This document shows positions 35,526 to 62,157 of a DNA stretch of 64,000 nucleotides, one piece after another. The notes under the pieces were generated by a model that saw only the letters and a program-made list of their open reading frames with translations, searched no databases and had not been told where the DNA came from. Origin of the DNA: an uncultured Tateyamaria sp. (GTDB lineage: Bacteria; Pseudomonadota; Alphaproteobacteria; Rhodobacterales; Rhodobacteraceae); NCBI GenBank assembly GCA_947501275.1, contig CANMVD010000001.1:1612001-1676000 (forward strand), given 5' to 3'. Position 1 is the first letter of the stretch. Every line of letters begins with the position of its first letter. Made by a program: the position numbers and the translations under genes.

Positions 35526-35580
35526 GGAATTCAGAATGGCGAGGTGATTCCTGCCATTCATAGGCGGGAGAGACTGCGAC

Positions 35581-36592: not shown

Positions 36593-36737
36593 TATCCGCT
36601 TCGATGCGCTGTAAATGCCCGGGATGTTGAGCGGTCTTTCCGGCAGCCAAGTATCACACCAGCGATCCGCAAACGCACGAGATCCAAGCCACGTTGTTCA
36701 AGCCTGCGCTGGCTTGGCAGCGATCAACGCAGCAGGG

Positions 36738-36995: not shown

Positions 36996-37163
36996 GGGAA
37001 ACCTCGCGGATGTCGAAAAAGCCGGGTTGTGTGATCTGAATTGGCACTGCGCGCACCGGCAAACGCGGGTAAGCCGATGCGCGCCTTTGCTGCCCGGATG
37101 AGCAGCGGCGTGTGCGGGTGCCTCAGTTGGGGAACAACGGCTGGGTCCGCACACAGATTGGTG

Positions 37164-38423: not shown

Positions 38424-38457
38424 TGGGTGGCGTTTCCTTGGTTTTTGGTCTGACAAA

Positions 38458-38937
38458 TCAATGCAGGCGGGCCACAAGGTCCGGATCTACAGGGGAATGT
38501 GTTGTGGGTTCGCGGTGGACGCGCCGGATGGTGTCGCCCACTTCGCCTGCCAGAATGGCGATGTGTTCTGCGTGCGCGGGGCCAGAAAGCAGCGTGGCAA
38601 TCAATGCGGCGTCGTTCAGGTGGCCATCCGAGGCTGTGCGGATGAGGTGCACAAAGATGCATTCGTCAGAACCGACGCAATTGCATCCAACTTCGTGCCG
38701 GATCAGCGGGCGGTGCGCGGTGCCAAGCACCTTGCATACCAGCCGCTCGAAACTGGCCCAAGCACGGTCGGCTTCTGAGTCGGGAAAGGCCTCGGCATAA
38801 TCTCGTCGTGCAAGGCGCTGCGCGTTTGGTCCATCACACCAGAGCCGCAGGTTCAGAACCAGATTGACCTCCCATGCTTCCATGTGATCGAGAGCCGCCA
38901 CAGCGACGCCGCCACGTCTTTGATGTTCCGAGGTCAT
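38458..38937 (-). CDS. Unknown protein with Cys cluster, HemP operon
   Basis: A 159-residue cytoplasmic-looking protein. HMEAWEVNLVLNLRLWCDGP, then LGTAHRPLIRHEVGCNCVGS and DECIFVHLIRTASDGHL are prominent. Cys34, Cys68 and the cluster Cys85-x-Cys87-x5-Cys93 could bind metal or haem. No family recognised. Its ATG overlaps the hemP stop (ATGA) and irpA follows 34 bases later, so the gene is tied to iron uptake by operon position alone. Confidence 0.85.
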   Translation of the reverse strand: MTSEHQRRGGVAVAALDHMEAWEVNLVLNLRLWCDGPNAQRLARRDYAEAFPDSEADRAWASFERLVCKVLGTAHRPLIRHEVGCNCVGSDECIFVHLIRTASDGHLNDAALIATLLSGPAHAEHIAILAGEVGDTIRRVHREPTTHSPVDPDLVARLH

Positions 38938-43003: not shown

Positions 43004-45598
43004 TCACGCATCATTGGCCAGCTTGAACACTTCAATCGGTTCACGAATACCTTTGAGACTGAGTTCGCCACGGGTCTCGATTGTGAAATCATCCTCAACT
43101 GCAATTCCGGCCCGCGCACTGAGCAGGATTTCCCCATCCGTGGCCTCGTCGCACAACCGCGACGCCAGATTGATCGCAGTGCCCGAAGCCGTGTAGTCGA
43201 ACCGCCCCTCAAAGCCCACAAGCCCGACTGTGGCATAACCAAGAGAGACGCCAACGCCAAAGCCAAGGCGATGGCCCAGTCGTTTCCAGCCCGCACACAG
43301 TTCGCTCATCCGCTCGCGCATCGCAATGGCAAGGCGCACCGCGGCCCCAGCAGGGTCATCACATGGCACCGGGTCGTTGAAAAGCACCATGACGCCATCG
43401 CCCATGCGCAAGTCGACACCCGCGCCGTGAGCGTTGATCAGTTTACCCATCTCTTCGTGATAGGTTTGCAGCACTTCAATAGTTTCCTCGGGCTCTGCGG
43501 TTTCGCAGAACGCGGTAAAGCCACGGATGTCGCAGAACAGGACGCCCAGCAGGGCACGGTGGCTTTGCAGCATCTGCTCAGACCCTGAAGACACAACCGT
43601 GTCAGCCACGGCAGATGGCAAAAACCGCTTGAGCCGGCCCATCCGCTCGATCTCGCCCACCTGTGCTTCGACTTTTGCCGCGAGTGAGGCGTTCAGCATC
43701 TGAACTTCGGATGTGCGCGCCTGCAAGTTTTTAAATTGGCGCGCATTTTCGATGGCGATGACGGCTTGCGCGGCAAAGGTTTCCACCAGCGCAATTTCAT
43801 CAGCAGTGTAGGGTTTGACCTCTGTGCGGAACAGCACAAGGACACCTTCACCCCCCTCTGGCGTCATCAGCGGCACAAACAGGTTCGTGCGGATGCCGGA
43901 GTCATCCACAACGGACGTATAGTGCGGCACACCGTTGCGATAGCCATCGGTATCGGCCATGTCTTCGACGTGAACCACGTCGCCCGACAGGATCGCCTTG
44001 GCCGCCATCGAGATGTCGGGGTTCATCGACACTTCGCCGCGCGCATAGACATCAAGCGTGTCCTGACTGACGCCGTAAGACACCGCCATACGTTGAAATG
44101 CATCTCCCTCGGAGCCCAGCGTCAGGGCACCTGCGCTTGCACCGCTCAGATCAATCGCCTTTTTCAGAATAGTGTCAAAGACGGGTATCATGTCGTCGCG
44201 GTGTTGGTTGATGACTTGCAGGATCTCGCGAGTTGCAGCCTCTCGCTCCAGCCGATCCCTGAGATCCCGGAACTGACGCACGTTTTCCAGCGCGATGACG
44301 GCTTGGGTGGCAAAGGTTTCGACCAATGCGATCTGTTCATCGCTGTAGGGGCGGACCTCGTGGCGGAAGATGATAAAGCAACCGATGCCTTCGCCGTCCC
44401 GGATGAGCGGGACAAACAGATTGGTGCGAATGCCCTGCACGTCACACAATTCGACGACGTTGGGCACGCCCGCCCGGTACTGGTCTGTGTCCATCATGTT
44501 GTGCAGATGCACCGGGCGCTGCTCGATGATCGCCCGCGCGGCAAATGATTTGTCGGGATCCATGGGCACACGGCCCTGACTGTAGAAACTTTCCGTGCTT
44601 TGCAACGCGCCGTGATGGGCGATCATGGTTTGCGCCCCATCCGTCTTGCGGCCCAGAACAAGCGCCGCGAAAGGCGCGTCGCACAGTTTGCGAGCGTTGC
44701 TCAGAATGGCGTCGAACACCGGTCCCTCGTCATCGCGGGCATTGCTGATTGCGTCCAGAATTTCGCGAGAGGCCGCCGCCTGATCCAGACGCGCCTCGAT
44801 CTCGTTGATGTGCAGCGAGTTCTTGATCGCGATGGCGGCCTGGTCGGCAAAGGCCTGGGCCAGTTCCAGGGCGCGGTCGTTGAACGGATGCACGCGGGTT
44901 CGGTAGACGCTGAAGACGCCGATCAAACGCCCGCCCGCCATCATCGGGATCGCAGCAAGGGATCGCGCCTGCCCGTATGTCACGGTCGCATAGCGCAGCG
45001 GGTTGTCGTCGTAACTGACGTTCTCCGCGTTCACATCGACAACGCTGACCGGTTTTTGTGTTCTGGCTGCACGCCCCACGGCCGTGTCCGGCCCCGGGTG
45101 GAACAGCCCCTGTTCGGCCAGCCATTTGGCAAAGGGCGCACTGATATGGCTTGAGCGCATTTCGGAAAAAGTGAAATCCCCGTGGTGTTCCATCAGAATG
45201 CCGAATTCCGCCTCGCAGATTTCAAGCGCTTGTTCGAGAACTTCGTCGATCACATCATCCAGATCGCCGCTGCTTTCGTTGATGATGCGCAGCACGCGGG
45301 TCATCGTGCGCTCGCGGCGCATCGCCTCGTCGAGCTCCAGCGCCAGATCAGCTGTCAACCCGCCTGAATCCTGGCCGTTGGCCATGTTGGCTTCCGGATC
45401 CGCAAGCGCCTGTGCAAGTGCAATTTTCGATGTGACGTTCAGCTTGCCGTAGACTGTGCGCAAATGAGAGCGCACGGTTGTGGGAGAAATCCCGAGGTCG
45501 CGGGCAATCACCTTGTAGCTGGCGCCATCTGCGTAGGCGGCGGCCACTTCGGCCTCTCTTTTGGATAGCGTTTCAATAGGTTGCGCCGCGTCTGACAT
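43004..45598 (-). CDS. HTH-GAF3-adenylate/guanylate cyclase fusion
   Basis: An 864-residue multidomain protein. Residues about 10-65 are a LuxR-type HTH (LSKREAEVAAAYADGASYKV, RDLGISPTTVRSHLRTVYGK). Three GAF-type units follow (about 110-265, 290-445, 470-625), each ending with an F-A-x-QA-x-IAI-x-N helix. The C-terminal class III cyclase has CDIRGFTAF and MGDGVMVLF with the metal Asp residues, and YTASGTAINLASRL. ATG 45598 has a G-rich SD. It should sense small ligands and make a cyclic nucleotide; a DNA-binding output on the same chain is unusual. Confidence 0.93.
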   Translation of the reverse strand: MSDAAQPIETLSKREAEVAAAYADGASYKVIARDLGISPTTVRSHLRTVYGKLNVTSKIALAQALADPEANMANGQDSGGLTADLALELDEAMRRERTMTRVLRIINESSGDLDDVIDEVLEQALEICEAEFGILMEHHGDFTFSEMRSSHISAPFAKWLAEQGLFHPGPDTAVGRAARTQKPVSVVDVNAENVSYDDNPLRYATVTYGQARSLAAIPMMAGGRLIGVFSVYRTRVHPFNDRALELAQAFADQAAIAIKNSLHINEIEARLDQAAASREILDAISNARDDEGPVFDAILSNARKLCDAPFAALVLGRKTDGAQTMIAHHGALQSTESFYSQGRVPMDPDKSFAARAIIEQRPVHLHNMMDTDQYRAGVPNVVELCDVQGIRTNLFVPLIRDGEGIGCFIIFRHEVRPYSDEQIALVETFATQAVIALENVRQFRDLRDRLEREAATREILQVINQHRDDMIPVFDTILKKAIDLSGASAGALTLGSEGDAFQRMAVSYGVSQDTLDVYARGEVSMNPDISMAAKAILSGDVVHVEDMADTDGYRNGVPHYTSVVDDSGIRTNLFVPLMTPEGGEGVLVLFRTEVKPYTADEIALVETFAAQAVIAIENARQFKNLQARTSEVQMLNASLAAKVEAQVGEIERMGRLKRFLPSAVADTVVSSGSEQMLQSHRALLGVLFCDIRGFTAFCETAEPEETIEVLQTYHEEMGKLINAHGAGVDLRMGDGVMVLFNDPVPCDDPAGAAVRLAIAMRERMSELCAGWKRLGHRLGFGVGVSLGYATVGLVGFEGRFDYTASGTAINLASRLCDEATDGEILLSARAGIAVEDDFTIETRGELSLKGIREPIEVFKLANDA

Positions 45599-45754
45599 AA
45601 TACCCCCGGCCGAATGTTGGGGCACAATACCCTACATTCCTCCTACATCAATTGGTTCATTTGAACGATACTGTCGCTTGCACGCATTGCGTAACTTGAG
45701 GTCATGACGTTGCGGGGACTGACCCCCGGGCGCTGCATTTTAGGAGACGACACA

Positions 45755-46202: not shown

Positions 46203-46570
46203 CGCAATATCCCAAGTCAGAATTGAAGCCCAGGGTGGCCAAACCACGCGGGAAACGGACCAACCCGTCGGTGCCCGCATATCCAGCCGTCTCTGTTTGG
46301 TCGAGGCGATTTCCAAGGCGTATCTGACCCTTATCAGCGTCAGAATTCGCTGCCGTATGTTGCTGATATTGAAGTGAGTTTTGTGCACTATCCCGCATTG
46401 CGTGTGCTCTCTTCGTAACAGGTGACGCCGATTTCCAAGATTTCCCCATGAATGTGCAAAATTAATGATGCACATGCGGTGAAGAACAGACCGAATGTCG
46501 CCAGTGCTCTGCCAGCCGACGCGCTGGCACCTAAACAATAATCGGCAAAAGCCGAGCGTGAGGGATGAAG
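46203..46570. other. Leader region of the giant repeat protein gene
   Basis: About 370 bases without a gene. Near its right end a small CGGC-AAAA-GCCG hairpin (about 46543-46554) precedes GAGGG, the SD of the giant gene. No promoter could be assigned. Confidence 0.4.
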
Positions 46571-49500
46571 ATGTCGAAGCTCAAAGCAGCCGTGAGTGCG
46601 GTCATTGCCGCTGTCCTCTCAACTGTATCTGCCACGCCCCCGGCTGACGCGACGCCATTCACCACGAATGTTCCGGGAACGAATATCTCGCTGCCAAGCG
46701 CCTACCCGGAGGCCGGTGGCGTTGTCATCGTCATGGAAGGCGTGAATGGACAGATCTACTACCAGTTCAGCGACCCTGACGGCGCTTTTCGCGGCTTCAA
46801 TTCCAACGGTCAACCGACACGGTTTCGGGGGAACCCCTTTACGATCAACGACCCGATCCCGCTGGATTGTGGCATCCGGACGTGTACCGAATACTTCGGA
46901 GGCGCGATTGCGCGCGTTTATGTCCGCTTTTCTGCCTATGACGGCGATACGCAACCGGGTGGGTTTGACGAGAATGACATCAGCCTGATCCTGAATGGGG
47001 TCAATGTCGGAAGCTGGTCCGGGCTCACAACCGAACGGACCAACAATTCAGGCACAGTCAGTCAAGGGTTTACCACGGGTTTTGGCAACAACACGTTCAA
47101 CACCGGTTGGTTCACCTCAACGAACCCGACATTGCTGAACAGCCTTTTGACGACCGGGCAGACGTCGACACAAGTGCTGGATGACGACCCCAATGACAAC
47201 TTCTGGGATTTTCGCCGCGGCGACAGTCTGGACAATGAAGCACTGCGCACAATTGCACCGGGGTACGAGTTTGAAAAGACAACAACTGCAACATCTTACA
47301 CAAATGTAGACGACACTATCCTCTATACCTACAAGGTTACCAATATCGGTTCGGTGAACATCAACAACCTCACGATTTTTGATGACAAGGTGGACGCGCA
47401 AGGCAGGTCCGTCACTTGCAACACAACGACAATCAACGAAACCACGGGCGGCGGCACGGCCGAAGTAGCAACCTGCACGGCTACTTATACCGTGACGCAA
47501 GAAGACATCGACAACGGCAGCCTGACCAACATCGCGCGCGCCAACGGGGTTCCGGAATTTGGCCAATTGGGCGCAGTCGAAGACAGTGTGACATTGCCGG
47601 GTCCGGCTGCTGCTCCTGATATGATCGTCACCAAACAGGCCGGTCAGGCAACATTCACGACCGTTGGTGAGGTGATTTCCTACGACTACACGCTTGAGAA
47701 CACGGGCAACACCACGCTGACCGATCTATCCATCAGCGATGATCGTATTCCCTCGCTCAGCTGTGCGCAGGCGTCGTTGCTGCCCGATGAAGTGCTGACC
47801 TGTTCGGCGACTTATACTGTGACACAGGACGATCTGGACGAGTTTGCAATCAACGGCACGCCCTTGACCAACACGGCAACAGCCGTCGGGCAGGACCGGG
47901 GCGGTGCGACCCTGACCCGTTCTGTAAACGAGACCGTGGACGGCCCTGCGGCGGCGCCAGCCATCGTGGTGACCAAGACCGCGCTGCAACAGGACTTTGA
48001 TGCGCGTGATGACGTCCTGCAATTCAGGATCGAGGTAACAAATACCGGCAATGTCACGTGGCCAGGGCCGCCCAGTATTACAGATGCGTTGATTACAAAT
48101 GCAGGAGGCAGCGTCAGCTGTCCGCCGGGGTCCGTGCCGCCAAACGGCAGCGTGATTTGTACCGCGGATTACACGGTCTTGCAGAATGACGTGAACATTG
48201 GCGAAGTCCTGAACGAGGCAACAGCCAGCATCACCGTCGGAGGCACAACCGTCAGTGCCACAGACGATGTCACCGTTCCTGCGGTGCAGACATCGGGCCT
48301 GACACTGCTCAAACAACTCAACAGCGCCAGCGCCACCAGCTTTGATGCACCAAACGTCACATTGATTTACGACTACGTGCTGACAAATACGGGCAACGTT
48401 ACGCTGAGCACACCACGTGTGAGCGATGACAAGATCACTGTTGCCTGCGCAGCCACCGAAATCCTGCCCGGCATGTCAGTTACGTGTACCTCTGACAACT
48501 ACCTGACAACACAGGACGATGTGGATACGGGCAGTGTCACCAATATCGCTACGGCTGCTGCTGACGATCCGGACGCAACCGAAGTCACCAGCGCGCAGCA
48601 ACAGGTGACTGTCGACGCTGACCAGATGCCAGAACTGACCCTCGACAAGCAAGCGCCCGTGGTGCCGCCTGTCGATTTCTTCGAAGGTCAGACTGTCACC
48701 TACACCTATGAAATCACCAACACGGGCAACACAACCTTTACCGGGCCGCTGACGGTGAATGATGACCGCATTTCCGGCCCCATTGATTGCGGATCGGCTG
48801 ATCTGCCGGTGAATGGCGTGCGCACGTGTCAGGCGATTTACACTGTAACGGCTGCGGATGAAGATCTTGGTTTTGTCACCAACACTGCAACCGCGACGGA
48901 TGGCACCACAACGTCGAACGCGGACACCGAAACCGTGCCTCAGGCGGGCACCGATGCGATCGAGCTGACCAAGGTTGCCGATCTGACGTCCGTGTCCAGC
49001 CTGTCGGATGTGATCACCTATACCTTCACCGTGACGAACGTGGGCGATCGTTCCATCGGGACGTTGCGCGAGATCACGGTCGATGACCCCCGTATTGGCA
49101 CGGTAAATTGTTCTCAGCCGGATCGGATTTTCCCGGTGGGGCAGGGCACACCCAATTCCATCACCTGTACCGGCACCACCAACCCGACACAGGACGAGCT
49201 TGACGCGGGCGAGGTTGTGAACACCGCAACAGCGCAATTTACACGCCCGAACGGGGGGACTCCATTTACCGTTGTTTCGCCGTCGGCTCAATCTGTTGTG
49301 CCTGTGGCCATCACGCCCGCATTCACCCTCGACAAGATCGGCCCGGCGCAGTTCACGTCTGTGGGTGAGCAGATCACCTACACATTCCGCGTCACCAACA
49401 GTACCGAACAGACCATCGCGACCGCCACTGTGACGGACCCGCTGATCCCCGGACTGTCTTGCGATCTGACGGATATTGGCCCGCTTACCTCGCAGGACTG

Positions 49501-52500
49501 CACCGGCACATATACCGTGACACAGGCCGATGTAGACAACGAGACCATTACGAACACGGCCACTGTCAATGGCATGTCCAGTACAGGCCAGACATTGGAC
49601 CCGGCCTCTGACACCGAAGTGATCCCGATTGATCCGGCGGCAGCGACGCAAGCTGTCGATCTGTCGAAAACGGCGAATGTGACCGAGTTCAATGCGGTTG
49701 GGGATCAGATCCGCTACAGCTTTGCCGTGGCCAATACCGGCACACAGACGTTGACAAGTATTGTCGTTACCGATCCGCTTGTGTCCCTGACTTGCACGAT
49801 TCCGGTGTTGGCCCCCAACACCTCGGACGACACTACTTGTCAGGCGGTTTACACCGTTGCGCAGGCCGATCTGGATGCCGGTGCTGTGAACAACACTGCC
49901 AGTGTGGCCGCCCCCGGCACTCCGGGTGATACCAGCACGTCGTCGGTTCCTGCGGCATCTCGTGATGCGTCCTTTAGCATCGACAAACAGGCTGATGACG
50001 CGGTGAGCGTAGTCGAAGGACAGATTGTCACCTACAGCTACAAAGTAACGAATACGGGCAATGTGACCCTGTCGAATGTTGTTCTGAGCGACACCCATAC
50101 GAGTGCCGCAGGCACGCAAGCCCTGACCATCTCAGGTGGCGGCAATACGGGCAGCATCGCACCGGGCGACGACGTGACTTTGACGGCCACTTACACGGTG
50201 ACCCAAGCCGATATCGATGCAGGCGACGCGCTGACCAACACAGTCAGCGGCACTGGTACACCGCCCACCGGCGTGACGCCGCCCACCGCGATTGATGACG
50301 AGACCGTAAGCGTTGCTTCCGCCAACCCGATATTGCGTGTGGTCAAGACAGAGGTGGACGGCTCCGGCACCTTTGGAGCGGTCTTAAGCAGTGAGGCCTA
50401 TTCGTTCGAAGTGTTCAACGATGGCAACGTGACCCTGTCCTCTTTGGTGCTGAGCGATGACCTAACCGGATTTACCTGCGCATTGGACGATCTGCCCCCG
50501 CTGACATCCACGACCATCTGTACGGGCGGGGCTGCTCTGAGCGACAGCTACACCGTTTTACAGTCAGATGTGGATGCCCGGTTCCTGACCAACGAAGTCA
50601 GCGTCACTGCTGCGGCGCCGGATGGATCCACGCTGACTGACACGGACAGCGTGACATTGTCGGGTCCAACGCAGGCCCCCTCCATCACCATGGTCAAAAC
50701 GGCAACCGCCGGGGCTGGGTTCTCTGTCTTGGGTGAGACGCTCAGCTATGATTATGTCGTGACCAATTCGGGTAACATCACCTTGACCGAAGCGATCACG
50801 ATCTCTGATGACCGGGTGTCGGTAACGTGTCCGGCGCTGCCGCTTGGCGGCTTGGCCCCCGGGGCAACGCTGACCTGTACGGCGACTGACACTGTCACGC
50901 AGGAAGATCTGAACACCGGCAGCGTAACAAACAACGCAACCGCCAGCGTAACTCAGCCCGTCGTGCCCGACACACCCGCCGATCCGACCACGATTACATC
51001 CACGACACCTTTGCAAACAGAGGTTGTCACTGCCACGCAGTCGCCGGGTCTGTCGATCTCCAAGGGGCTGGCCAGTGTGTCGGCCAGCAGCTTTACCGCT
51101 ATCGGGGATCAGATCACCTACGAATACACGGTCACCAACAGCGGCAATGTCACAATCACTGACACGATCAACGTCAGCGACGACAAGATCGCGAGCGGCG
51201 CTGCGCAATTCTGTTCTGACGCTGATCTGATGCCCGGTGACAGTCTGACCTGTACGTTGGTCTGGACGGCCGATCAGGGGGCCATCGACGACGGTGAAGT
51301 GATCAACACGGCCAGCCCAGTGTCGACCTTTGGTGGCAACCCGGTCCCGTCTACCAGTGACACGTTGACTGTGCCTGCGGTTCAGACGCCTGCGCTTACA
51401 ATGCTCAAAGAGTTCGTAACAATCCGCAACGCAACCCCACCACCCGTAGTTGGGGATTTTGCGGCTGGCAATACCGTTGTCTATCGCTACACGGTTACCA
51501 ATTCGGGCAACACCACCATCACTACAGAACCGGTGGTCAATGACAATCTGATCGCCAGCGCGGATATCTCAATTGATGCGGCGTTCCCCGCAAGTGGGAT
51601 GGCACCCGGTGACAGCGTGACCTTCACCGGTGAATATGTGCTCACCATTCAGGATATTCAGCTTGGCAGTGTTACAAACAATGCCACGGCCACGTCCAAT
51701 GGCGTCACATCGAACCCGGACGCGGAAACAGTGCCAACCGGATCCACCCCTGCGTTAAGCGTTGTGAAATCGGCCTTGCAGCCTTCGTTCACCGCGGTGG
51801 GTGATGTGATTGACTACGAATATGTGGTGACCAACACGTCGCCCGGTTCCCCTGCGCCTGCTTTTGCCAATGCGATCACGGTTGCGGATGATCGCACGAC
51901 TGTGACCTGCCCTGCGACACCCGGCGGCCAGTTGCGTGTGGGTGAATCCGTGACCTGTACTGCGTCCTACACCGTCATTCAGGAAGATTTGGATGCTGTT
52001 GCCGCCGGGCAAGCGGGTGGTTTTGTCACCAACGTTGCGACCGCAAACACAGTCTTTGGCGGGCAGGACGTGCAATCGCCCGCAGATACTGTCACCGTGC
52101 CTGCCGTCAATGACCCGGCCCTGACAGTTGCCAAGAGCGTCTCGGGCGGACCGGACCCGGCCGGTGCTGGTGATACAATCACCTATGCGATCCTCACCAC
52201 AAACAGCGGCGATACTACAGTGAACGGTGTCGACGTGAGTGATCCGATGCTGGCGTCTCTCAGCTGCTTTGCGGGCGCAAGCAATGCAGGAGCGCCTGTG
52301 ACACTGCCAACCACGCTTGCGCCCGGCGCGCAATTGCTGTGCGAAGGCGACTACATCATCACACAGGACGACGTGGATGATCAGAACCTCGTCAACACAG
52401 CCACGGTGCAAGGCACCACACCGGCAGGCGCGGCCGTGAGCGGGACGGGAACAGTTGCAGCGCCACTGGAAGTTGACGCCCCAGCCGTGACCGTGCTCAA

Positions 52501-55500
52501 AGCCCTGAGTGCCAGCGAGCCTGACAGCAGTTTCAGCATTGTCGGTCAGGTGATCGAGTTCACCGTGACCGTGCGCAACTCCGGTAATGTCACGCTGAGT
52601 TCGACAACGGTCACCGATGATCTGTTGCCCGGCGAAAGCTGTGATGTTCCCAGCCTTGCCCCGGGTGACGAAGACACCAGCTGTACCTTCGCTTACACCG
52701 TCACGCAGGACGATATTGATGCCGGCGAGTTGACCAATGTGGTGCGCGCCAGTTCTGTGCCTGTCAGCGATCCGGGCAATCCTGTTACGGATGACGGCAC
52801 GCTGTTGGTGGATGGCCCAGCAGCGGAACCTGCGTTCAGCCTTACCAAGACGGCTGATGTGGCCACCTTTGCGGCACCGGGTGAGACGATCACCTACAGC
52901 TACCGTGTGTCGAATACTGGCAATGTGACGCTCACGGCACTTCCGACCATCACGGATGACAAGATTTCCAGTGTCGCCTGTCCGCCGTATCCTTCGGGGG
53001 AATTGGCACCGCAAGACAGCATTGTTTGTACCGCGACCTACCTGACCACGCAGCTTGATGTGGACAATGGCGGCGTCACCAACATCGCATCGGTCCAAAG
53101 CAGCGAAGTGCCATTTGATCCAAACGATCCCGACCGGGCCGAGGCGACCGAAACCGTGCCTGCCGCGCAGGGTCCTGCCTTTACCATCGACAAGACGGTG
53201 GACGATGCCTCATTGGTCGAAGCCGATCAGGTTCTGACCTACAGCTACCGCGTGGTGAACACAGGCAATGTTACCCTGACCGACATCACGCTGAACGATG
53301 CGCATACCAGCGCGGGTGGGACAACCGCACTGACATTGAGCAATGGCGGCGTGATTGCCAGCCTTTTGCCAGGCGCTGAGGCGACGCTGACGGCCACCTA
53401 TTCCGTAACGCAAGCCGATCTCGATGACGGTGGCGATATCACCAACACCGTGTCGGGAACCGCGACACCGCCCGGCATATTGACCCCGCCCGTGGCAGAA
53501 GACACCCAAAGCGTGACAGTAGCGGCTTCCGATCCGGAGATCACTGCGATCAAGACGGTAAGTGCCAACACGGGCACCGGTGTCGGTGATACCGTGACCT
53601 TCGATATTACCGTGACGAACACCGGCAACGTCACCTTGGACACTGTGTCCCTGACGGACACCTTGCGTGACGGAAACGGGCAGGCGATCACACCTGCGCC
53701 CGTGCCTGCATTGGTCTCAGGCGACGGTGCAATTCTTGATGTGGACGAAGTGTGGACTTACCGTGTGAGCTATACGCTGACGCAATCGGATATCGACAGT
53801 GGTGGCCTCAGTAACTCGGTTCTGGTGCGGGCGCAGGACCCAAGCGACACACCCGTCAGCGACCTGAGCGACAACAACATCCCCGGCGACGGGCCAGACA
53901 CGCCAACAACCTTTGAACTGCCCGCACAGGCGGCGGTGACCGGGCTAAAATCCATCACTTCATCGGGCACCAACGTCGGGGAAACTGTCAGTTTTGCGAT
54001 CACTGTCACAAATGTCGGCAACGTGACCCTGACAGATGTAGGCATAGCATCAGATACATTGGAACGCCAAGATGGTACTCCGCTGGCGCTGGCCACCGGA
54101 CCCACGTTCTCGTCCAACAATGCAGGCTCGCCCGAAGGCACGTTGGAGGTCGGAGAAATCGCGACATTCGTGGCGACTTACGTGTTGATCCAAGCCGATA
54201 TCGACGCGGGCGGCATTCGCAACTCTGCTGTGGTGGCGGGCACACCGCCGCGTGGTCCGCCTGTCACTGACGTTACCGACAATGGTGTGCCGGGCGATGG
54301 CGACGACACGCCAACCTCTCTCGATATCACAGCGGCACCTGCCTTTACGTTCAACAAGGCCTATACCGGTGCTGATGCGAGCTTTGACAGCGAAGGCGAT
54401 GTGTTGGAATACACGTTCACGCTGGTCAACACGGGCAACGTCACTCTGCGCGATGCGATCGTGATCACCGATCCCATCATCACCAACCCGATTGTGTGTG
54501 ACCCCGTGTCTGCTGCTGCACCATGGCCCCCGACCGAGACACGCACCTGCACGACCACCTATGCGGTCACGCAAAATGACGTCGACAACGGCGAAGTCCT
54601 CAACACCGCCACCGCCGCAGTTGGGCCAGCATCCGATCAGACTGACAGTGCAACTGTTCCCGCCAACCAAACTCCCGCTCTTGAGCTGCAAAAGGTGGCC
54701 GACAGTGTTGATCCGGCGACCGAATTCTTTGTGGGGGCGCTGATCAACTATACCTACACCGTGACAAACACGGGCAATACGACCGTCGACACGCCCATCA
54801 CCATCAACGACAACCTCATCCCGGCAAGTGACATCACGTGCCCTGTATTCCCTGCGGATGGCATCGCGCCGGGCGGCACATATGTGTGTGAAGGTGTCTA
54901 TACGGTGACCGCAGGCGATGTGGACCTGACGCTTGTCACAAATCTCGCCACGGCCACGGATGGTGTCACCACGTCACCGCAGGTCACTGAAACCATTCCA
55001 AACAATGCTGTTCCGGCGCTTGAGCTGACCAAAGAACTGTTGGGCGTGACTGACGCAAGTGACGCGGCACGCGCGGGCGGGTTTGAAGCGGTTGGCGACA
55101 AGTTGCTCTACCGCTTCAGCGTCGTGAACACAGGCGGTCTGGCCTTTGTGAACGATGTGGTCATCAACGATGCTCTGCTTTCGGCTCCGCTGGTGTGTTT
55201 TACCGCATCAGGTGCAGATCCTGATTTCCGTCCCGGCGAAACTGTGACCTGCGAGACAGATGCAATCGCGGCCTATGTAGTGACGCAGGACGATCTTGAT
55301 GCGGGTGAAGTGTTTAACGAGGCCATCGCCGAGACCAGCGCAACCGGGCTCACAGCGCCGGTGATTTCGGATGTGTCTTCGGTTACCACACCAGCGGCAA
55401 CAGATCCGATGTTCGAGCTGACCAAGACAACCGTGGCAAGCAGTTTTGCGACTGTTGGCGAAACGATCACGTTTGACTTTGTGCTGAGCAACACGGGCAA

Positions 55501-58500
55501 CCAGACCCTGTCCAATCTCGAAGTGACGGATCCGTTGATCCCAACCCTTGTGTGTTCTGTTGCATCACTTACGCCGGGGGACGATCTGACTTGCGCAGGC
55601 GATTATGTCGTCACGCAAGAGGACATTGATGCAGGTACGTTCAGCAATACGGCCACTGCCACAGGCATAACCCCATCAGGTGTTGCAGTGCCACCGGTCA
55701 CGAGCACTGCAGTCGTGCCTGGCCCCTTGAGCGATCCGTTGACACTTGCACTGACCAAAACGGCGACGCCGTCGCCCTTTGGTGCAGTCGACAGCACGGT
55801 GTCTTACGGGTTCTCGATCGAGAACACCTCGCGGTTCACCTTGGTGGATGTGACGGTCACCGATCCGTTGATCCCGGGCTTTAGCTGTGTGATTGCGCAG
55901 CTTGATCCCGGTGTGACCGACAGCACAAGCTGTGCGGCGACCTACACCGTCACGCAACAAGATGTGGATCGCGGATCGCTGGAAAACACCGCCGAAGTGA
56001 CGGCGGGCGATTTGTCCGGCACACGCACCGTCACGGTGAGCGATACGATCACGACACCGGGGCCTGCACGTGTGCCTGCACTTGAGGCCACGAAGACGGC
56101 AAACATCACAAGCCTGACGCCCGGTTCTGACATCGTTTACACGCTGCGTGTGGTCAATACGGGCAATGTAACGCTGGATGTGACCGGCGTGAGCGACACC
56201 ATGAACCGGATCAATACCGGCGCGCCGACGTTCCTGACGACGCCCTTCGCCCTTGTTGCGGGTGACAGCAACAATGACGGTTTCCTCGATGTGGATGAGG
56301 TGTGGGAATACAGCGCGACCTATCGCATCACGCAGTCCGATCTGAATGCGGGCGGGGTGGAAAACTCGGTTGAAGTAACGGCCGTTGGCCCGACAGGCAC
56401 AGGGCCCACCAGCGACACCTCGGATGACGGAGATGATGGTGATGGCAATGTGAGTGACGATCCGACCGTAGTTGAAATCACGCTCGATCCGCGCCTCGAT
56501 GTAACCAAAACCGTTGTTACATCCGGCACGCAAGCCGGTGACACGGTCGTGTTTGAAATTTCGGCAGCCAATATTGGTAATGTGGACATCAGTGGCCTGT
56601 CGATCACCGACACGCTCAGCCGGGCAGACGGGACACCGCTTGGGACCCAACCGGCCGTTCCCATCGGCGCCATTGGCGATCCGTTGTCTCCGGGGGCGAC
56701 TGCCGTTTGGCGGGTGTCTTATGAATTGACGGCTGATGATGTGGATGCAGGTGGGCTGTCCAACGCTGTTGTTGTCAGCGGTGTCGGCCCCGGCCCTGGA
56801 TTTGTCCCGGTGACGGACACAGGCGATGATGGCGATGACACGGACGGCAATACCAGCGATGATCCGACTGTTCTGGCCATTACGCCCCAACCCGAACTGG
56901 TGGTTACCAAGACATCCGCCAACCAGACGACAGCCCCGACGGCACCCGGCGAAACCGTATCGTTCGACATTCTGATCGAGAACCTTGGCAATGTAACGCT
57001 GCGCGATCTGGTCTATACCGATACGTTAACCCGATTGGATGGCACGCCGCTCACCCCGAGCAACACGCCACCCACAGGTTTGCCGGAATTGGGAGCAGGG
57101 GACAGTACAACCGTCACGGTCAGCTACATTCTGACCCAAGAGGATTTTGACGCAGGCGGTGTTCAGAACGTGTTTGAAGCAACCGGCACAGATCCGCTTG
57201 GCCTGCCGATCACGGATGTGTCTGACGATGGTGACGATACAGACGGCAACACACTGAACGACCCAACACAGGTCCCGATCCCGGCGGTTACGACCGTGAC
57301 ACTCAGCAAGACTGCGGATGTGCCCACGCGTATCCTTGGGACGGTGTTCGAGGTTGTCTTTACCCTCACCCTTCAAAACACAGGCAATGTCACCCAGGCG
57401 GACCTTGTGCTGGAGGATGATCTGACCGTCTTTGTCGCGCCTGCGACCCTGACATCGGTTGCCACGCCCGTTGCCACAGGCTTTACGACAGGTGGCGCCA
57501 ATGGTGGTTTTGACGGCCAGGGGACGCTGAACACATTGGCACCCGGTACGTCGCTGGCTCCGGGCGAGACCGCCACTGTGACTATAGCCGTACAATACGA
57601 CACAGCCGCAGGGTCGCCTGCGGGAACGAATACGGCATCGCTGACGTCCGATCGCATCGCGACGGCTGTAACGGCCTCTACAGCGGTCAGCAGTTCTGAA
57701 CCGGCGTCGGACATTGTCGCCGGCAAGCGGTTGATCAGTGGTGGTATTGTCCAGCGTGGGTCGGTTGTGACGTTCGAATTGACGTTCGAGAACCGCAATA
57801 CCACTGCAGAAAGCGGTTTGACCTTTGTAGATCAACTGCCGCCCGGCCTGATCTATGTGCCGGATTCTGTAACCTTCAATGGTGCAGCGACGCCTGCACC
57901 TACACTGAACGGGCGTGCGGTGACGTGGCCGGGGCAAACGCTGGCGGCAGGGGAGTTGGTCACGATCCAACTGAGTGCGCGCCTGACCGGCGGGGCCGGA
58001 GAATACACCAACAGCGCTTACGTGATCGGGCCAGATGGGTCGCGTGCGTCCAACACCGCAACCGCTGTGCTGCGTGTCAGCCCCGAAGCGGTGTTTGACT
58101 GCGGCGACATCATCGGAAAGGTGTTCGATGATCTGAACGCGGATGGTTATCAGGATCCGCCACGCACGCTTTTGCGCGATGGCAACACGGCCGCGGTGCG
58201 TCGCAAGCTCGACACGTGGACGCCAAAGCAGATCCAGGAGGATGGCGGTGAGCCGGGCCTGCCCGGTGTCAAGCTGGTGACTCCGCGTGGCGATATCATC
58301 ACCACAGACAAATATGGTCGTTTCAACGTGCCGTGCGCGCTTTTGCCAAATCAGCGGATAGGCTCGAACTTCCTGCTGAAACTCGATGATCGCTCGTTGC
58401 CCACTGGTTACCGCGTGACCACCGAGAATCCGCGCGTGATGCGGGTGACGGCAGGCAAGATGGTCGAGATGAACTTTGGTGCGCGTCTTGGCAATCTGGT

Positions 58501-58753
58501 CGAGATTGATCTGACAGCCACCGCTTTTGCTGGTGATGCGCCCAGTGCCGCATTGGTTCAGGGGCTGTCAGGGCTGGTGGGGCAGATCAGAAACGAACCA
58601 TCGGCTATCGTGCTGCGCTACTACCGCAGCGATGAAACGTTGAGTACCGCGCGTGCCCGGTTGCGCGCCGCGGAAGCAGCCCTGCGCAAGGCGTGGAAGG
58701 GTCGAGGCACCTACCGGTTGGACGTCGAACGGTCCGTCAGGCGGCTGCAGTGA
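46571..58753 (+). CDS. Giant secreted DUF11-repeat protein
   Basis: A 4060-residue protein. Signal peptide (MSKLKAAVSAVIAAVLSTVS); ATG 46571 is chosen because GAGGG sits six bases upstream, the ATG at 46565 being too close. Residues 30-225 form a unique N-terminal domain (VNGQIYYQFSDPDGAFRGFN). From about 229 to 3841 there are about 30 DUF11/DUF7507-like Ig repeats. Most have V-TNTGN-TL and Y-VTQ-D-DAG-x-NTA. An SdrD B-like domain follows (CGDIIGKVFDDLNADGYQDP), then a C-terminal 85 residues (IVLRYYRSDETLSTARARLR). Exported; a surface or periplasmic stalk is inferred. The barrel gene follows after 11 bases. Confidence 0.93.
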   Translation: MSKLKAAVSAVIAAVLSTVSATPPADATPFTTNVPGTNISLPSAYPEAGGVVIVMEGVNGQIYYQFSDPDGAFRGFNSNGQPTRFRGNPFTINDPIPLDCGIRTCTEYFGGAIARVYVRFSAYDGDTQPGGFDENDISLILNGVNVGSWSGLTTERTNNSGTVSQGFTTGFGNNTFNTGWFTSTNPTLLNSLLTTGQTSTQVLDDDPNDNFWDFRRGDSLDNEALRTIAPGYEFEKTTTATSYTNVDDTILYTYKVTNIGSVNINNLTIFDDKVDAQGRSVTCNTTTINETTGGGTAEVATCTATYTVTQEDIDNGSLTNIARANGVPEFGQLGAVEDSVTLPGPAAAPDMIVTKQAGQATFTTVGEVISYDYTLENTGNTTLTDLSISDDRIPSLSCAQASLLPDEVLTCSATYTVTQDDLDEFAINGTPLTNTATAVGQDRGGATLTRSVNETVDGPAAAPAIVVTKTALQQDFDARDDVLQFRIEVTNTGNVTWPGPPSITDALITNAGGSVSCPPGSVPPNGSVICTADYTVLQNDVNIGEVLNEATASITVGGTTVSATDDVTVPAVQTSGLTLLKQLNSASATSFDAPNVTLIYDYVLTNTGNVTLSTPRVSDDKITVACAATEILPGMSVTCTSDNYLTTQDDVDTGSVTNIATAAADDPDATEVTSAQQQVTVDADQMPELTLDKQAPVVPPVDFFEGQTVTYTYEITNTGNTTFTGPLTVNDDRISGPIDCGSADLPVNGVRTCQAIYTVTAADEDLGFVTNTATATDGTTTSNADTETVPQAGTDAIELTKVADLTSVSSLSDVITYTFTVTNVGDRSIGTLREITVDDPRIGTVNCSQPDRIFPVGQGTPNSITCTGTTNPTQDELDAGEVVNTATAQFTRPNGGTPFTVVSPSAQSVVPVAITPAFTLDKIGPAQFTSVGEQITYTFRVTNSTEQTIATATVTDPLIPGLSCDLTDIGPLTSQDCTGTYTVTQADVDNETITNTATVNGMSSTGQTLDPASDTEVIPIDPAAATQAVDLSKTANVTEFNAVGDQIRYSFAVANTGTQTLTSIVVTDPLVSLTCTIPVLAPNTSDDTTCQAVYTVAQADLDAGAVNNTASVAAPGTPGDTSTSSVPAASRDASFSIDKQADDAVSVVEGQIVTYSYKVTNTGNVTLSNVVLSDTHTSAAGTQALTISGGGNTGSIAPGDDVTLTATYTVTQADIDAGDALTNTVSGTGTPPTGVTPPTAIDDETVSVASANPILRVVKTEVDGSGTFGAVLSSEAYSFEVFNDGNVTLSSLVLSDDLTGFTCALDDLPPLTSTTICTGGAALSDSYTVLQSDVDARFLTNEVSVTAAAPDGSTLTDTDSVTLSGPTQAPSITMVKTATAGAGFSVLGETLSYDYVVTNSGNITLTEAITISDDRVSVTCPALPLGGLAPGATLTCTATDTVTQEDLNTGSVTNNATASVTQPVVPDTPADPTTITSTTPLQTEVVTATQSPGLSISKGLASVSASSFTAIGDQITYEYTVTNSGNVTITDTINVSDDKIASGAAQFCSDADLMPGDSLTCTLVWTADQGAIDDGEVINTASPVSTFGGNPVPSTSDTLTVPAVQTPALTMLKEFVTIRNATPPPVVGDFAAGNTVVYRYTVTNSGNTTITTEPVVNDNLIASADISIDAAFPASGMAPGDSVTFTGEYVLTIQDIQLGSVTNNATATSNGVTSNPDAETVPTGSTPALSVVKSALQPSFTAVGDVIDYEYVVTNTSPGSPAPAFANAITVADDRTTVTCPATPGGQLRVGESVTCTASYTVIQEDLDAVAAGQAGGFVTNVATANTVFGGQDVQSPADTVTVPAVNDPALTVAKSVSGGPDPAGAGDTITYAILTTNSGDTTVNGVDVSDPMLASLSCFAGASNAGAPVTLPTTLAPGAQLLCEGDYIITQDDVDDQNLVNTATVQGTTPAGAAVSGTGTVAAPLEVDAPAVTVLKALSASEPDSSFSIVGQVIEFTVTVRNSGNVTLSSTTVTDDLLPGESCDVPSLAPGDEDTSCTFAYTVTQDDIDAGELTNVVRASSVPVSDPGNPVTDDGTLLVDGPAAEPAFSLTKTADVATFAAPGETITYSYRVSNTGNVTLTALPTITDDKISSVACPPYPSGELAPQDSIVCTATYLTTQLDVDNGGVTNIASVQSSEVPFDPNDPDRAEATETVPAAQGPAFTIDKTVDDASLVEADQVLTYSYRVVNTGNVTLTDITLNDAHTSAGGTTALTLSNGGVIASLLPGAEATLTATYSVTQADLDDGGDITNTVSGTATPPGILTPPVAEDTQSVTVAASDPEITAIKTVSANTGTGVGDTVTFDITVTNTGNVTLDTVSLTDTLRDGNGQAITPAPVPALVSGDGAILDVDEVWTYRVSYTLTQSDIDSGGLSNSVLVRAQDPSDTPVSDLSDNNIPGDGPDTPTTFELPAQAAVTGLKSITSSGTNVGETVSFAITVTNVGNVTLTDVGIASDTLERQDGTPLALATGPTFSSNNAGSPEGTLEVGEIATFVATYVLIQADIDAGGIRNSAVVAGTPPRGPPVTDVTDNGVPGDGDDTPTSLDITAAPAFTFNKAYTGADASFDSEGDVLEYTFTLVNTGNVTLRDAIVITDPIITNPIVCDPVSAAAPWPPTETRTCTTTYAVTQNDVDNGEVLNTATAAVGPASDQTDSATVPANQTPALELQKVADSVDPATEFFVGALINYTYTVTNTGNTTVDTPITINDNLIPASDITCPVFPADGIAPGGTYVCEGVYTVTAGDVDLTLVTNLATATDGVTTSPQVTETIPNNAVPALELTKELLGVTDASDAARAGGFEAVGDKLLYRFSVVNTGGLAFVNDVVINDALLSAPLVCFTASGADPDFRPGETVTCETDAIAAYVVTQDDLDAGEVFNEAIAETSATGLTAPVISDVSSVTTPAATDPMFELTKTTVASSFATVGETITFDFVLSNTGNQTLSNLEVTDPLIPTLVCSVASLTPGDDLTCAGDYVVTQEDIDAGTFSNTATATGITPSGVAVPPVTSTAVVPGPLSDPLTLALTKTATPSPFGAVDSTVSYGFSIENTSRFTLVDVTVTDPLIPGFSCVIAQLDPGVTDSTSCAATYTVTQQDVDRGSLENTAEVTAGDLSGTRTVTVSDTITTPGPARVPALEATKTANITSLTPGSDIVYTLRVVNTGNVTLDVTGVSDTMNRINTGAPTFLTTPFALVAGDSNNDGFLDVDEVWEYSATYRITQSDLNAGGVENSVEVTAVGPTGTGPTSDTSDDGDDGDGNVSDDPTVVEITLDPRLDVTKTVVTSGTQAGDTVVFEISAANIGNVDISGLSITDTLSRADGTPLGTQPAVPIGAIGDPLSPGATAVWRVSYELTADDVDAGGLSNAVVVSGVGPGPGFVPVTDTGDDGDDTDGNTSDDPTVLAITPQPELVVTKTSANQTTAPTAPGETVSFDILIENLGNVTLRDLVYTDTLTRLDGTPLTPSNTPPTGLPELGAGDSTTVTVSYILTQEDFDAGGVQNVFEATGTDPLGLPITDVSDDGDDTDGNTLNDPTQVPIPAVTTVTLSKTADVPTRILGTVFEVVFTLTLQNTGNVTQADLVLEDDLTVFVAPATLTSVATPVATGFTTGGANGGFDGQGTLNTLAPGTSLAPGETATVTIAVQYDTAAGSPAGTNTASLTSDRIATAVTASTAVSSSEPASDIVAGKRLISGGIVQRGSVVTFELTFENRNTTAESGLTFVDQLPPGLIYVPDSVTFNGAATPAPTLNGRAVTWPGQTLAAGELVTIQLSARLTGGAGEYTNSAYVIGPDGSRASNTATAVLRVSPEAVFDCGDIIGKVFDDLNADGYQDPPRTLLRDGNTAAVRRKLDTWTPKQIQEDGGEPGLPGVKLVTPRGDIITTDKYGRFNVPCALLPNQRIGSNFLLKLDDRSLPTGYRVTTENPRVMRVTAGKMVEMNFGARLGNLVEIDLTATAFAGDAPSAALVQGLSGLVGQIRNEPSAIVLRYYRSDETLSTARARLRAAEAALRKAWKGRGTYRLDVERSVRRLQ
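47255..58092 (+). repeat. About 30 tandem DUF11-type domain repeats
   Basis: Protein-level tandem repeats averaging about 120 residues, counted by eye from each L-x-x-K-x start (EFEKTT at the first, IVAGKR at the last). Repeats 1-18 and 21-25 mostly carry a Cys pair, as in VTCP and LTCTATYTVT, likely an intradomain disulfide. Repeats 19-20 and 26-28 lack Cys and end in Asp-rich linkers such as DGDDTDGNTSDDPT. Repeats 29-30 are divergent and resemble classical DUF11 (LPPGLIYVPDSV). DNA identity between units is low, so the array is old. Confidence 0.88.
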
Positions 58754-58764
58754 GGGTGATTGGT

Positions 58765-61700
58765 ATGAAACGGGTTTTCGCAACAACTGCATTCTTACTG
58801 GGGTCTACTGCATTCCCGGCGCTGGCGCAGGACGGATTTGTTATCCAATTGAATGGGGACAAAGTTGCGGGCAGTGATCCTGTCCTTGAACGTCAGATCA
58901 AACGTATCGATGAAGTGCTGGAACGCGCGGATGTGCGGGTTCAGTATGATGGGCTGGATGTCACCCCGCGCCTTGATCTGGAGATTGAGGGATCAGATGA
59001 GGGTCGCCGCGCAGGCGAGATTGTCACCCTGCAATCCGCGTTGAACTATCCGGGTTTTGTGACGCGGGGCGAAATTCTGATTATGGATCTGAATGCGCGC
59101 GGCGGGCCAAAGACATTGGGGCGCTATGACATCGCGCCCAATGGCCAAGTCAAGGTGAAGGTACCCGAAGGCGACAATATCGTGGCCTTGCACCGGGTCT
59201 ATGATGCACGTGGCCGCTATGATGAAACCGCGCCATTGCGTCTCAGCCGAGGTGATGAACGCGACCTTGTGGACGGTGTCGAGGACGGCAATGACGCCAC
59301 CGCGCGCCGCCGTATTCCTGTGTATGGGGGGGCGGTGACGGTATCAGGTAGCAGCGTGGCTACCGGAGCGCAGGTCAGCACGTTGGGCGAAGTGATCCGC
59401 CCCAATGGATCGGGCGAGTTTGTCATTCAGCGCATCCTCCCGCCCGGCGAACATGCCGTTGGTGTGCAAGTGCGCGGTGCAGGTGCAGCACCGGTGGACG
59501 TCGTGCGTGAGATCGAAGTGCCTCGTTCGGACAGCTTCTATGCGGTGCAACTGGACCTGACGCTTGGTTATAGCGACAGCGATCTGGATGGGCGCGACTA
59601 CTACCAAGAGGGGCGCGTCGCAGGCTACTTCAAGGGCCGCTTTGCGAATGGCGTGGAACTGACCGCGCAGGTGGACACGGGCGAAGGCGACCTTGATGAT
59701 ATTTTCTCCGGTCTGGGGGAACGCGATCCGCGCTCGACTTTCTTGCGGCTGGATCCGGATGATCTTTATCCGACATATGGCGACGACAGCACGTTGGTTG
59801 ATGACACCCCGACCTCCGGCAAGTTTTATCTGCGGGTGGAGAAAGACAACAACTATGCGCTTTGGGGCGATTGGCGCGCCAATATCGCCAACACAACCTA
59901 TCTGCGCAACGATCGCACACTGTACGGCGCGAGAGGTCACATCGAATCCAGGGACGTCACATCACAAGGTGAGCCACGCTGGCAGTTCGATGCCTATGCC
60001 GCGCAGCAGGATACGCTGACGCAACGGGATGTCTTCCGGGGCACGGGCGGGTCCGTCTACTTCCTCAGCCGTCAGGATCTGACCATCGGTTCGGAAACCC
60101 TGCTGGTGCAGGTGCGCGATGCGACAACGGGGCGGGTGATCTCGACTCAGACACTGGTGGCTGGGCGCGACTACACGATCAACCACATCCAAGGCATCGT
60201 GACCCTCGAAGAGCCGTTGCAATCGGGGTCTGGCTCAAACAGGCTTGTCGTGACGGACGTAGGCGGTGCTGCGGATGTGAACCTTGTTGCGCAATACGAA
60301 TTCACCCCTGACGCGGGCGATATTGACGCGTTTGCCTATGGTGGGCGTGGCGAGGTCTGGGTAAATGACCGTTTGCGCTTTGGCGCAACTGTGCAAAGTG
60401 AACAGACGCCTTCGGGCACACAGGACTCCTTTGGGCTGGATCTGCGCTATCAAGTGAATGAGGAAACCTACCTGAACCTTGAATATGCCAAGTCCGAAGG
60501 TCCTGGTTTCAGCTCAGACATCTCGACCGACGGGGGCCTTGTTTTCGACGAAGCCACTGCGGTGGCGGGGCGCGGAGAAGCCTACAGGATCGAAGGGCGC
60601 GCTGCGCTGGTTGATCTTGGCATTGCTGCCGAGGGCGCCATAAGCGCCTATTTCGAAGAACGCAGCGCCGGGTTCACAACGCTGGATTACTCCACTGTTG
60701 ATGACGAAACGTTGTGGGGTGTTGCGCTTGATGTTGCGGTGACAGATCGGCTCGATATTGCGCTGTACTTTGACAGTTTCGAACAGGATGGCGGCAAGAT
60801 CGACCGCGAAGGTGGGATCGAAGCCAACTATGCACTGACGGATCAAGCGACACTCAGCTTTGGTCTTGAGAACCTTGAACGCGAAGGTGTGTCCGGATCG
60901 GGGGACGGATCGCGTACAGACGCGGTTGTGCGCCTTGGTTTTGAGCCCTCTGAAACACTCAGCTGGTACGTCTTTTTGCAAAAGACATTGGAGCGTTCGG
61001 GCACGCTTGAGGACAATGATCGCGTGGGGCTGGGTGGCCGTTTGGCATGGGCTGAGAATTGGGAACTCGAAGGGGAAATCTCTGACGGTGACAACGGCAC
61101 AGGCGGACGTTTGCTGATCCGCAATGACAAGGGCGAGGCTGGCAACACTTACTTCGGCTATGAACTTGATCCTACACGTGAAATTTCGGGGTTGAGCCGG
61201 ACGGAAACAGGCCGGTCCCAAGGGCGTTTCATCGTGGGAGGGGAACGCAAGGTCAGCGGAACTGTGACCATGTTTGGCGAAAATGCGTATGACCGGTTTG
61301 GCCGCTACAAAAGCCTCACCTCGTCATACGGCATCACCTATGAGCCAACGGAGCGACTGTCTTTCCTGACAGCTTTCGAAACCGGGCAAGTGCGCGACGA
61401 GGTGAATGGCAACTTTGACCGATACGCCTTGTCCCTTGGTGTGCAGTACCAATCCGAAATTTGGGAAGGCAAGGCACGGCTGGAATACCGACAGGAAGAC
61501 GGCACAGGCAGTGCGTCGACCCGCGACAGTGACACGTGGTTGTTCACGGGTTCAGGCAGCTACAAGATTGATGAAAGCCAGCGCTTGGTCTTTTACGCCA
61601 AAGTGTCAGACACCGACGGCAACGGCGGTATCGCACCGGATGCCAATTTTACTGATCTGTCTGTTGGCTATGCCTATCGTCCGATCCACGACGAGCGGCT

Positions 61701-62157
61701 GAACGTGCTGTTCCGCTATCGCTATCTGGACGACGAATTTGGCCAGAGGGTGCGCGACAGCAATGACCCCGGTCCGGTTCAGCGCAGTCACGTGTTCAGC
61801 GTTGATGCAGAATACGATCTGACTAAGACATGGTCCTTGGGTGGCAAGATCGGTGCCCGGTTCAGCGAAAGCGCGTTGACCAGCGCGGATGCCTATACTT
61901 CAAACGATGCGGTCTTGGGCATCATGAATGCGCGCTGGCACATGCTGGACAAATGGGATGCCCTGTTCGAATTGCGCGCTCTGGATCTGCGCGACGTAGG
62001 CACCACCGAAGTTGGTGGGCTGGCCGCTGTCTATCGGCACGTCGGCAAAAACGTGAAGCTGGGTATTGGCTACAACTTCACCAATTTCAGCGATGACCTG
62101 ACGGACCTGACTTATGATGACAAGGGCGCTTTCATCAATGTCGTGGCTAAGTTCTAA
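58765..62157 (+). CDS. Outer-membrane beta-barrel partner of the giant protein
   Basis: An 1130-residue protein with signal peptide (MKRVFATTAFLLGSTAFPALAQ). Residues about 25-180 form an N-terminal periplasmic region. An Ig-like part follows near 183 (IPVYGGAVTVSGSSVATGAQ), and from about 266 strands alternate (LTLGYSDSDLDGRDYYQEG) with conserved DLYPTYGDDSTLVDDTPTSG and YLRVEKDNNYALWGDW. The last residues INVVAKF end in Phe, the outer-membrane barrel signal. No TonB box or plug. ATG 58765 is 11 bases after the giant gene, so one operon. It may anchor or export its neighbour. Confidence 0.88.
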   Translation: MKRVFATTAFLLGSTAFPALAQDGFVIQLNGDKVAGSDPVLERQIKRIDEVLERADVRVQYDGLDVTPRLDLEIEGSDEGRRAGEIVTLQSALNYPGFVTRGEILIMDLNARGGPKTLGRYDIAPNGQVKVKVPEGDNIVALHRVYDARGRYDETAPLRLSRGDERDLVDGVEDGNDATARRRIPVYGGAVTVSGSSVATGAQVSTLGEVIRPNGSGEFVIQRILPPGEHAVGVQVRGAGAAPVDVVREIEVPRSDSFYAVQLDLTLGYSDSDLDGRDYYQEGRVAGYFKGRFANGVELTAQVDTGEGDLDDIFSGLGERDPRSTFLRLDPDDLYPTYGDDSTLVDDTPTSGKFYLRVEKDNNYALWGDWRANIANTTYLRNDRTLYGARGHIESRDVTSQGEPRWQFDAYAAQQDTLTQRDVFRGTGGSVYFLSRQDLTIGSETLLVQVRDATTGRVISTQTLVAGRDYTINHIQGIVTLEEPLQSGSGSNRLVVTDVGGAADVNLVAQYEFTPDAGDIDAFAYGGRGEVWVNDRLRFGATVQSEQTPSGTQDSFGLDLRYQVNEETYLNLEYAKSEGPGFSSDISTDGGLVFDEATAVAGRGEAYRIEGRAALVDLGIAAEGAISAYFEERSAGFTTLDYSTVDDETLWGVALDVAVTDRLDIALYFDSFEQDGGKIDREGGIEANYALTDQATLSFGLENLEREGVSGSGDGSRTDAVVRLGFEPSETLSWYVFLQKTLERSGTLEDNDRVGLGGRLAWAENWELEGEISDGDNGTGGRLLIRNDKGEAGNTYFGYELDPTREISGLSRTETGRSQGRFIVGGERKVSGTVTMFGENAYDRFGRYKSLTSSYGITYEPTERLSFLTAFETGQVRDEVNGNFDRYALSLGVQYQSEIWEGKARLEYRQEDGTGSASTRDSDTWLFTGSGSYKIDESQRLVFYAKVSDTDGNGGIAPDANFTDLSVGYAYRPIHDERLNVLFRYRYLDDEFGQRVRDSNDPGPVQRSHVFSVDAEYDLTKTWSLGGKIGARFSESALTSADAYTSNDAVLGIMNARWHMLDKWDALFELRALDLRDVGTTEVGGLAAVYRHVGKNVKLGIGYNFTNFSDDLTDLTYDDKGAFINVVAKF

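Follow-up and report, generated by a model that had tools for sequence, protein, structure and literature searches.

A giant Ig-like repeat protein and a large predicted outer-membrane barrel are encoded as a pair: a candidate two-gene surface-display unit

The window analyzed here, a stretch of 64,000 nucleotides from an uncultured Tateyamaria sp., carries a gene for a giant protein of Ig-like repeats followed directly by a gene for a large outer-membrane barrel protein. Giant and barrel are paired in the same way at most of the places where the giant's C-terminal tail was detected in other genomes. We consider it fairly probable that they form a two-gene surface-display unit working like a split autotransporter, in which the giant would dock to the barrel, be exported and end up at the cell surface. 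An earlier note on this DNA had placed the giant gene 11 nt upstream of the barrel gene and counted 30 repeats in the giant, and both points hold. The features of the locus are as follows.

46565..58753, plus strand: giant repeat protein gene, 4062 aa (open reading frame calls, Pfam DUF7507/DUF11)
46565..46654, plus strand: residues 1-30 of the giant, its signal peptide region, with a hydrophobic core at residues 6-24 (hydropathy, sequence reading)
46655..47248, plus strand: N-terminal tip domain of the giant, residues 31-228, without a Pfam match of its own
47249..58024, plus strand: stalk of the giant, 30 tandem Ig-like repeats, residues 229-3820 (iterated repeat profile)
58094..58489, plus strand: SdrD_B/CnaB-like domain of the giant, residues 3844-3975 (tail model, fold search)
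58490..58750, plus strand: C-terminal beta-alpha-beta-alpha-beta domain of the giant, residues 3976-4062, basic (tail model)
58754..58764, plus strand: intergenic gap, 11 nt (read from the sequence)
58765..62157, plus strand: outer-membrane barrel gene, 1130 aa, terminal Phe (open reading frame call, barrel model)
58765..58827, plus strand: residues 1-21 of the barrel protein, its signal peptide region (sequence reading)
58828..59514, plus strand: acidic N-terminal domain of the barrel protein, mainly beta, residues 22-250, presumably periplasmic (barrel model)
59530..62154, plus strand: beta-barrel, residues 256-1130 (barrel model, fold search)
59767..59790, plus strand: YPTYGDDS, within the stretch still matched by a distant single-chain family

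A GAGGGTG stretch starts within the stop codon of the giant gene and runs toward the barrel gene. No promoter-like site was listed between the two genes in a scan that was itself uninformative, with numbers close to chance (4 promoter-like sites found against 6.4 expected, and 18 terminator-like sites against 14.6). Profile searches of the source genome gave a single tail match and a single barrel match, both at this locus. Many long antisense open reading frames of up to 547 codons lie on the minus strand inside the giant gene (47117-57970), and are probably a by-product of the codon composition of the repeats.

Profiles of the tail and the barrel were run on 394 genomes of the family, 240 of the class and 249 of the phylum. 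The draws partly overlapped, and each tail place was counted once. Candidates scored per genome were limited to 2 or 3 for the barrel and 7 or 12 for the tail, which makes all copy numbers minima. Among 70 tail places the barrel was directly next in the same order at 55 and in reversed order at one, tail and barrel were fused in one reading frame at five, two places were cut by contig ends and seven were unpaired, meaning that no barrel was found downstream within the fetched DNA. The earlier note had asked whether the two genes are often separate in relatives; they are not, and the co-occurrence of tail and barrel supports the pair as a unit well.

The family sample held 52 tail places in 41 of the 394 genomes. 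The barrel was found downstream on the same strand at 42 places, with 5-440 nt between the profile matches, and two further adjacent pairs in the fetched DNA (G340:C39 and G414:C3) raised this number to 44. The other places were three cases of one open reading frame (G409:C1, G192:C5 and G097:C42), a reversed adjacency with the barrel preceding the giant (G420), two places cut by contig starts (G163) and two unpaired tails (G097:C62 and G241:C212). The class sample added 10 places, four adjacent, one fused (G631:C38) and five unpaired; four of these five belong to one genus (G527, G631) and the fifth (G522) is a weak match. Seven of the eight further places in the phylum sample were adjacent and one was fused (G865); the second of the G725 pairs rests on a weak tail match. 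Tail and barrel were also found at one locus in four genomes of the same genus (L005, L006, L007 and L010), which are not among the 70. Little or no upstream DNA was covered at G527:C73, G631:C50, G522:C188 and G241:C212, and a reversed order is possible there.

In the family sample, barrel matches lacking a tail were located at contig ends (G064, G198 and G209), in G420, in short or broken fragments and in the distant single-chain family. Four giants of G527 and G631 without a downstream barrel (L153, L154, L155 and L156) have tails extended at the C-terminus by a further conserved part, about 120 residues long; barrels on their own are present elsewhere in this genus (G527:C58 and G631:C36).

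The five reading frames that join tail and barrel, three strong and two with weak tail matches (47 bits in G192:C5 and 32 bits in G097:C42), are the best evidence that tail and barrel act as one functional unit. The G865 frame of 2079 codons, open at the contig start, combines a tail match of 157 bits with a barrel match of 870 bits. In G409 the two matches (79 and 720 bits) share one frame, and the stalk consists mainly of CarboxypepD_reg repeats, not DUF7507. The 4548-codon frame of G631:C38, which begins at the contig start, has matches of 112 bits to the tail and 373 bits to the barrel, and its CnaB-like domain runs almost straight into the barrel. A rule that fusions always lose the last domain of the giant and the N-terminal domain of the barrel protein fits G631:C38 but not G409 or G865, and was rejected. 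The distant single-chain family has a recognisable barrel core in open reading frames of mostly ~1,650 to 2,300 codons and is widespread in the phylum. Its members include L013 (partial view), L064, L066, L067, L072, L144, L150, L151 and L152, and some of these reading frames also carry a CnaB-like or DUF11 domain.

Barrel matches were found in 23 plasmid records, and a giant was located directly upstream in all five that were examined (Sulfitobacter guttiformis, Eleftheria terrae, Vibrio campbellii, Sinorhizobium meliloti and Croceibacterium atlanticum). A canonical OmpA domain (PF00691) belongs to the giant itself in Croceibacterium and to the barrel protein in Eleftheria; in Vibrio it is encoded by the next gene downstream of the barrel. 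Such shuffling near the junction points to a single complex that brings together the stalk anchor, the OmpA module and the barrel. The Vibrio campbellii giant ends after the CnaB-like domain and lacks the last domain; the product of the gene after its barrel (L166:17584-18495) resembles a lipoprotein and contains two OmpA stretches. Within the genus of the window the barrel was found in 5 of 20 genomes searched, the source genome included. Together with the limited presence of the tail in the family, this marks the pair as an accessory system, which also occurs on plasmids.

Tail and barrel distances were correlated over 48 pairs (Mantel r 0.78, with 0 of 2000 permutations as high), a co-divergence that would also arise from linkage alone. 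When paralogues were swapped within five genomes the true pairing ranked 1 of 96, nearly tied with the best swap (0.78206 and 0.78204, respectively), and tail and barrel had a nearest neighbour in common in only 25 of the 48 pairs. We compared 28 stretches, in which flanks were often short and upstream DNA often little or absent, and no third gene was shared by more than 3 of them. The unit therefore seems self-contained, while a weakly linked third gene may lie beside the pair, given the short flanks.

Pfam assigned 28 DUF7507 and 12 DUF11 stretches to the giant, which an iterated profile resolved into 30 repeats with a mean spacing of 120 residues. Lys, Asp and Asn form isopeptide cross-links in the DUF11/DUF7507 stalks of CLIPPER adhesins (PMC12617251), and each residue of this triad is present in 30 of 30 repeats. 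Every repeat accordingly has the residues required for covalent self-locking, and the bonds themselves may form. With tandem domains and the triad, the giant corresponds to the CLIPPER/DUF11-DUF7507 type of stalk. The stalk is acidic, in contrast to the basic tail. No Pfam match to a known adhesive domain was listed for residues 31-228, and an adhesive role of the giant is presumed. The first 260 residues of the 120 giants closest by tail were compared by a crude word-sharing test, which placed 86 of the 120 tips in one group and the others in smaller groups or as singles, some of which are fragments starting inside the repeats. N-terminal regions hence vary among some giants with related tails, and a constant base with tips that vary would be in keeping with a display device.

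Of 4449 candidate proteins, 1143 matched the last 243 residues of the giant at E 0.001. The last 342 residues were modelled (pLDDT 93.3, pTM 0.72) as an Ig-like domain, a CnaB/SdrD_B-like domain and a beta-alpha-beta-alpha-beta domain. In a fold search, which covered mainly model residues 1-256, the CnaB/SdrD_B-like domain matched Gram-positive pilin domains. Comparison of the tail with PDB sequences gave chance-level matches only, and a distant tail copy gave none. The tail in the window has a pI of 9.6; the last 85 aa of the giants have a pI above 8 in 88 of 119 cases, with 31 of 119 not basic. In the model the last domain resembles an OmpA domain in layout, and it is possibly a degenerate OmpA-type domain. 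This assignment is kept tentative: the last domain has no match to PF00691 or another Pfam family, profile-profile comparison with OmpA gave no statistical support (probability 2.7 percent, E 0.017), and the one intermediate, a distant homologue, was weak (13.6 bits, E 0.09, below the cut-off). A stand-alone open reading frame of 247 codons (L054:3977-4717, on G097:C62) has a signal-peptide-like start, a CnaB-like domain and the C-terminal tail without any repeats, and no barrel was found in the 1.7 kb up to the contig end.

The barrel model contains 44 strands of at least 7 residues or 38 of at least 9 residues, and a fold search with it matched porins, ushers and other large barrels. A 2020 review names SprA, with 36 strands, as the largest such barrel; if the strand count holds, the barrel described here rivals the largest outer-membrane barrel known. 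The match to the SprA fold is weak (TM 0.15). The SprA family TIGR04189 gave no match in the source genome, yet none in 14 control genomes either. The barrel profile had no match among PDB sequences, and the lumen may be plugged. The pI of the N-terminal domain has a median of 4.9 (n=120; range 4.3-9.8). Two-partner secretion (type Vb) is defined by POTRA domains and a barrel of the Omp85/TpsB family. No POTRA, Omp85 or TpsB family, no autotransporter (type Va) barrel family and no intimin-type barrel family matched the window's barrel or was among the 9 families matched by 28 aligned members. The barrel frame is split into two pieces in three genomes (L118, L114 and L148; G055, G561 and G719), due to either sequencing error or decay.

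For the pair in the window we infer docking, passage through the barrel and its direction as follows. Giant and barrel protein would both cross the inner membrane via Sec, and the barrel would insert in the outer membrane. The tail, with its CnaB-like and basic beta-alpha domains, would dock to the barrel on its periplasmic face, and the 30-repeat stalk would exit through the very wide barrel, probably with the tail-proximal part first. Outside, the repeats would fold and an isopeptide bond would lock each of them, so that they could not slip back. The tail would remain as anchor, joined in some relatives by an OmpA-family domain. As Ig-like repeats measure ~4 nm each, the N-terminal tip would be displayed ~120 nm out. 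We counted in favor of display the pairing, the fusions, the co-divergence, the lack of a recurrent third gene in the stretches compared, the triads, the large predicted barrel, the shuffling, the basic tail with the acidic N-terminal domain and the variable tips. Against it we counted the 7 of 70 unpaired tails, the 2 weak fusions, the 31 of 119 non-basic tails, the near tie in the paralogue test, the 25 of 48 shared nearest neighbours, a co-divergence that linkage would explain, a possible plug in the lumen, the T11SS-type protein encoded elsewhere in the genome and the patchy distribution.

The main rival to an autotransporter-like route is a barrel that serves as anchor only, with the giant reaching the surface by a different route, such as BAM or a T11SS-type protein, and its tail binding the barrel from outside or inside. 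Linkage and fusion require merely a stable complex, and giants without an adjacent barrel exist. The source genome also encodes, elsewhere, a protein with a T11SS/Slam-type barrel match (G000:C2:510124-510975; PF04575, 32.8 bits, cut-off 22), which could export the giant. However, fused stalks lie on the N-terminal side of the barrel chain, so that the passenger would have to pass that barrel or BAM, and the compared flanks of the pair contain no recurring exporter gene; we regard this explanation as unlikely.

Import rather than display would be the function of the barrel if the stalk captured a nutrient ligand. TonB-dependent receptors are among its fold matches and provide the label of 7 of the 23 plasmid-record barrels. 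These fold matches are, however, weak (TM 0.12-0.16 by query length). No TonB plug or receptor family was found by name in the window's barrel or among the 9 families of the 28 aligned members, where one outer-membrane barrel family, PF14905, matched 1 of 28 at 0.0029. A nutrient receptor is thus quite improbable. Slightly less credit still is given to a giant retained in the periplasm, where it would tether the barrel to peptidoglycan within the envelope. OmpA-family domains do lie close to the junction in three relatives, but 30 Ig-like repeats are several times longer than the periplasm is wide, and the N-terminal regions differ between giants. Triads in 30 of 30 repeats are also in keeping with exposed stalks such as those reported in PMC12617251.

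Type Va autotransporters consist of a passenger followed by a C-terminal barrel of 12 strands, an order shared with the single-chain versions of the present system. The barrel in the window differs in being about three times larger, in being a separate chain and in having no autotransporter family match. The CLIPPER adhesin B9T28_05395 of Acinetobacter silvestris is similar to the giant in its tandem DUF11-type stalk, K-D-N triad and N-terminal tip, and has an OmpA-like end (PMC12617251). The main text of that paper mentions no dedicated barrel partner and uses neither "outer membrane" nor "barrel", whereas the stalk of the giant ends in a CnaB-like domain and has its own barrel partner. ZirTS of Salmonella also consists of two genes, one for a barrel and one for the separate, Sec-dependent passenger that this barrel exports, and a split intimin/invasin or autotransporter is one origin its authors suggest (PMC2270342). 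ZirT differs in being intimin-like, with homology over residues 88-368, and in releasing its passenger (PMC2270342); the window's barrel has no intimin-type Pfam match and far exceeds ZirT in size, and the tail of the giant is conserved. Type IX secretion shares a C-terminal targeting domain on the cargo and a very large barrel, the 36-strand SprA, and its OmpA-family peptidoglycan anchor PorE recalls the OmpA-type module of the relatives, but it has at least 19 components compared to two linked genes here (PMC7463736). By analogy, the giant-barrel pair would behave like a split autotransporter with a CLIPPER stalk.

Among the matches listed from the open-licence literature, none described the pair by title and start of abstract. 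DUF11-type stalk adhesins of Gram-negatives have already been described; with the fused and split versions found here, a partner can be named for the outer-membrane crossing or retention of Sec-exported stalks of thousands of residues. In 17 of 23 plasmid records the barrel is annotated as a hypothetical protein or as a TonB-dependent receptor, and this family becomes directly testable. More tentatively, and with some doubt on our part, the pair may represent a new secretion and display system of Pseudomonadota, in which a very large single-chain barrel, exceeding SprA with its ~38 to 44 strands, would be dedicated to the export and holding of stalks that are thousands of residues long and locked covalently, in split, fused and three-gene (separate OmpA) versions.

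Elsewhere in the window, a single protein encoded at 43004-45625 combines a LuxR-type HTH, three GAF stretches and a cyclase domain, and an imelysin gene (PF09375) lies near a di-haem oxidoreductase gene (PF06537) at 33984-38477; these two genes may have a role in iron uptake.
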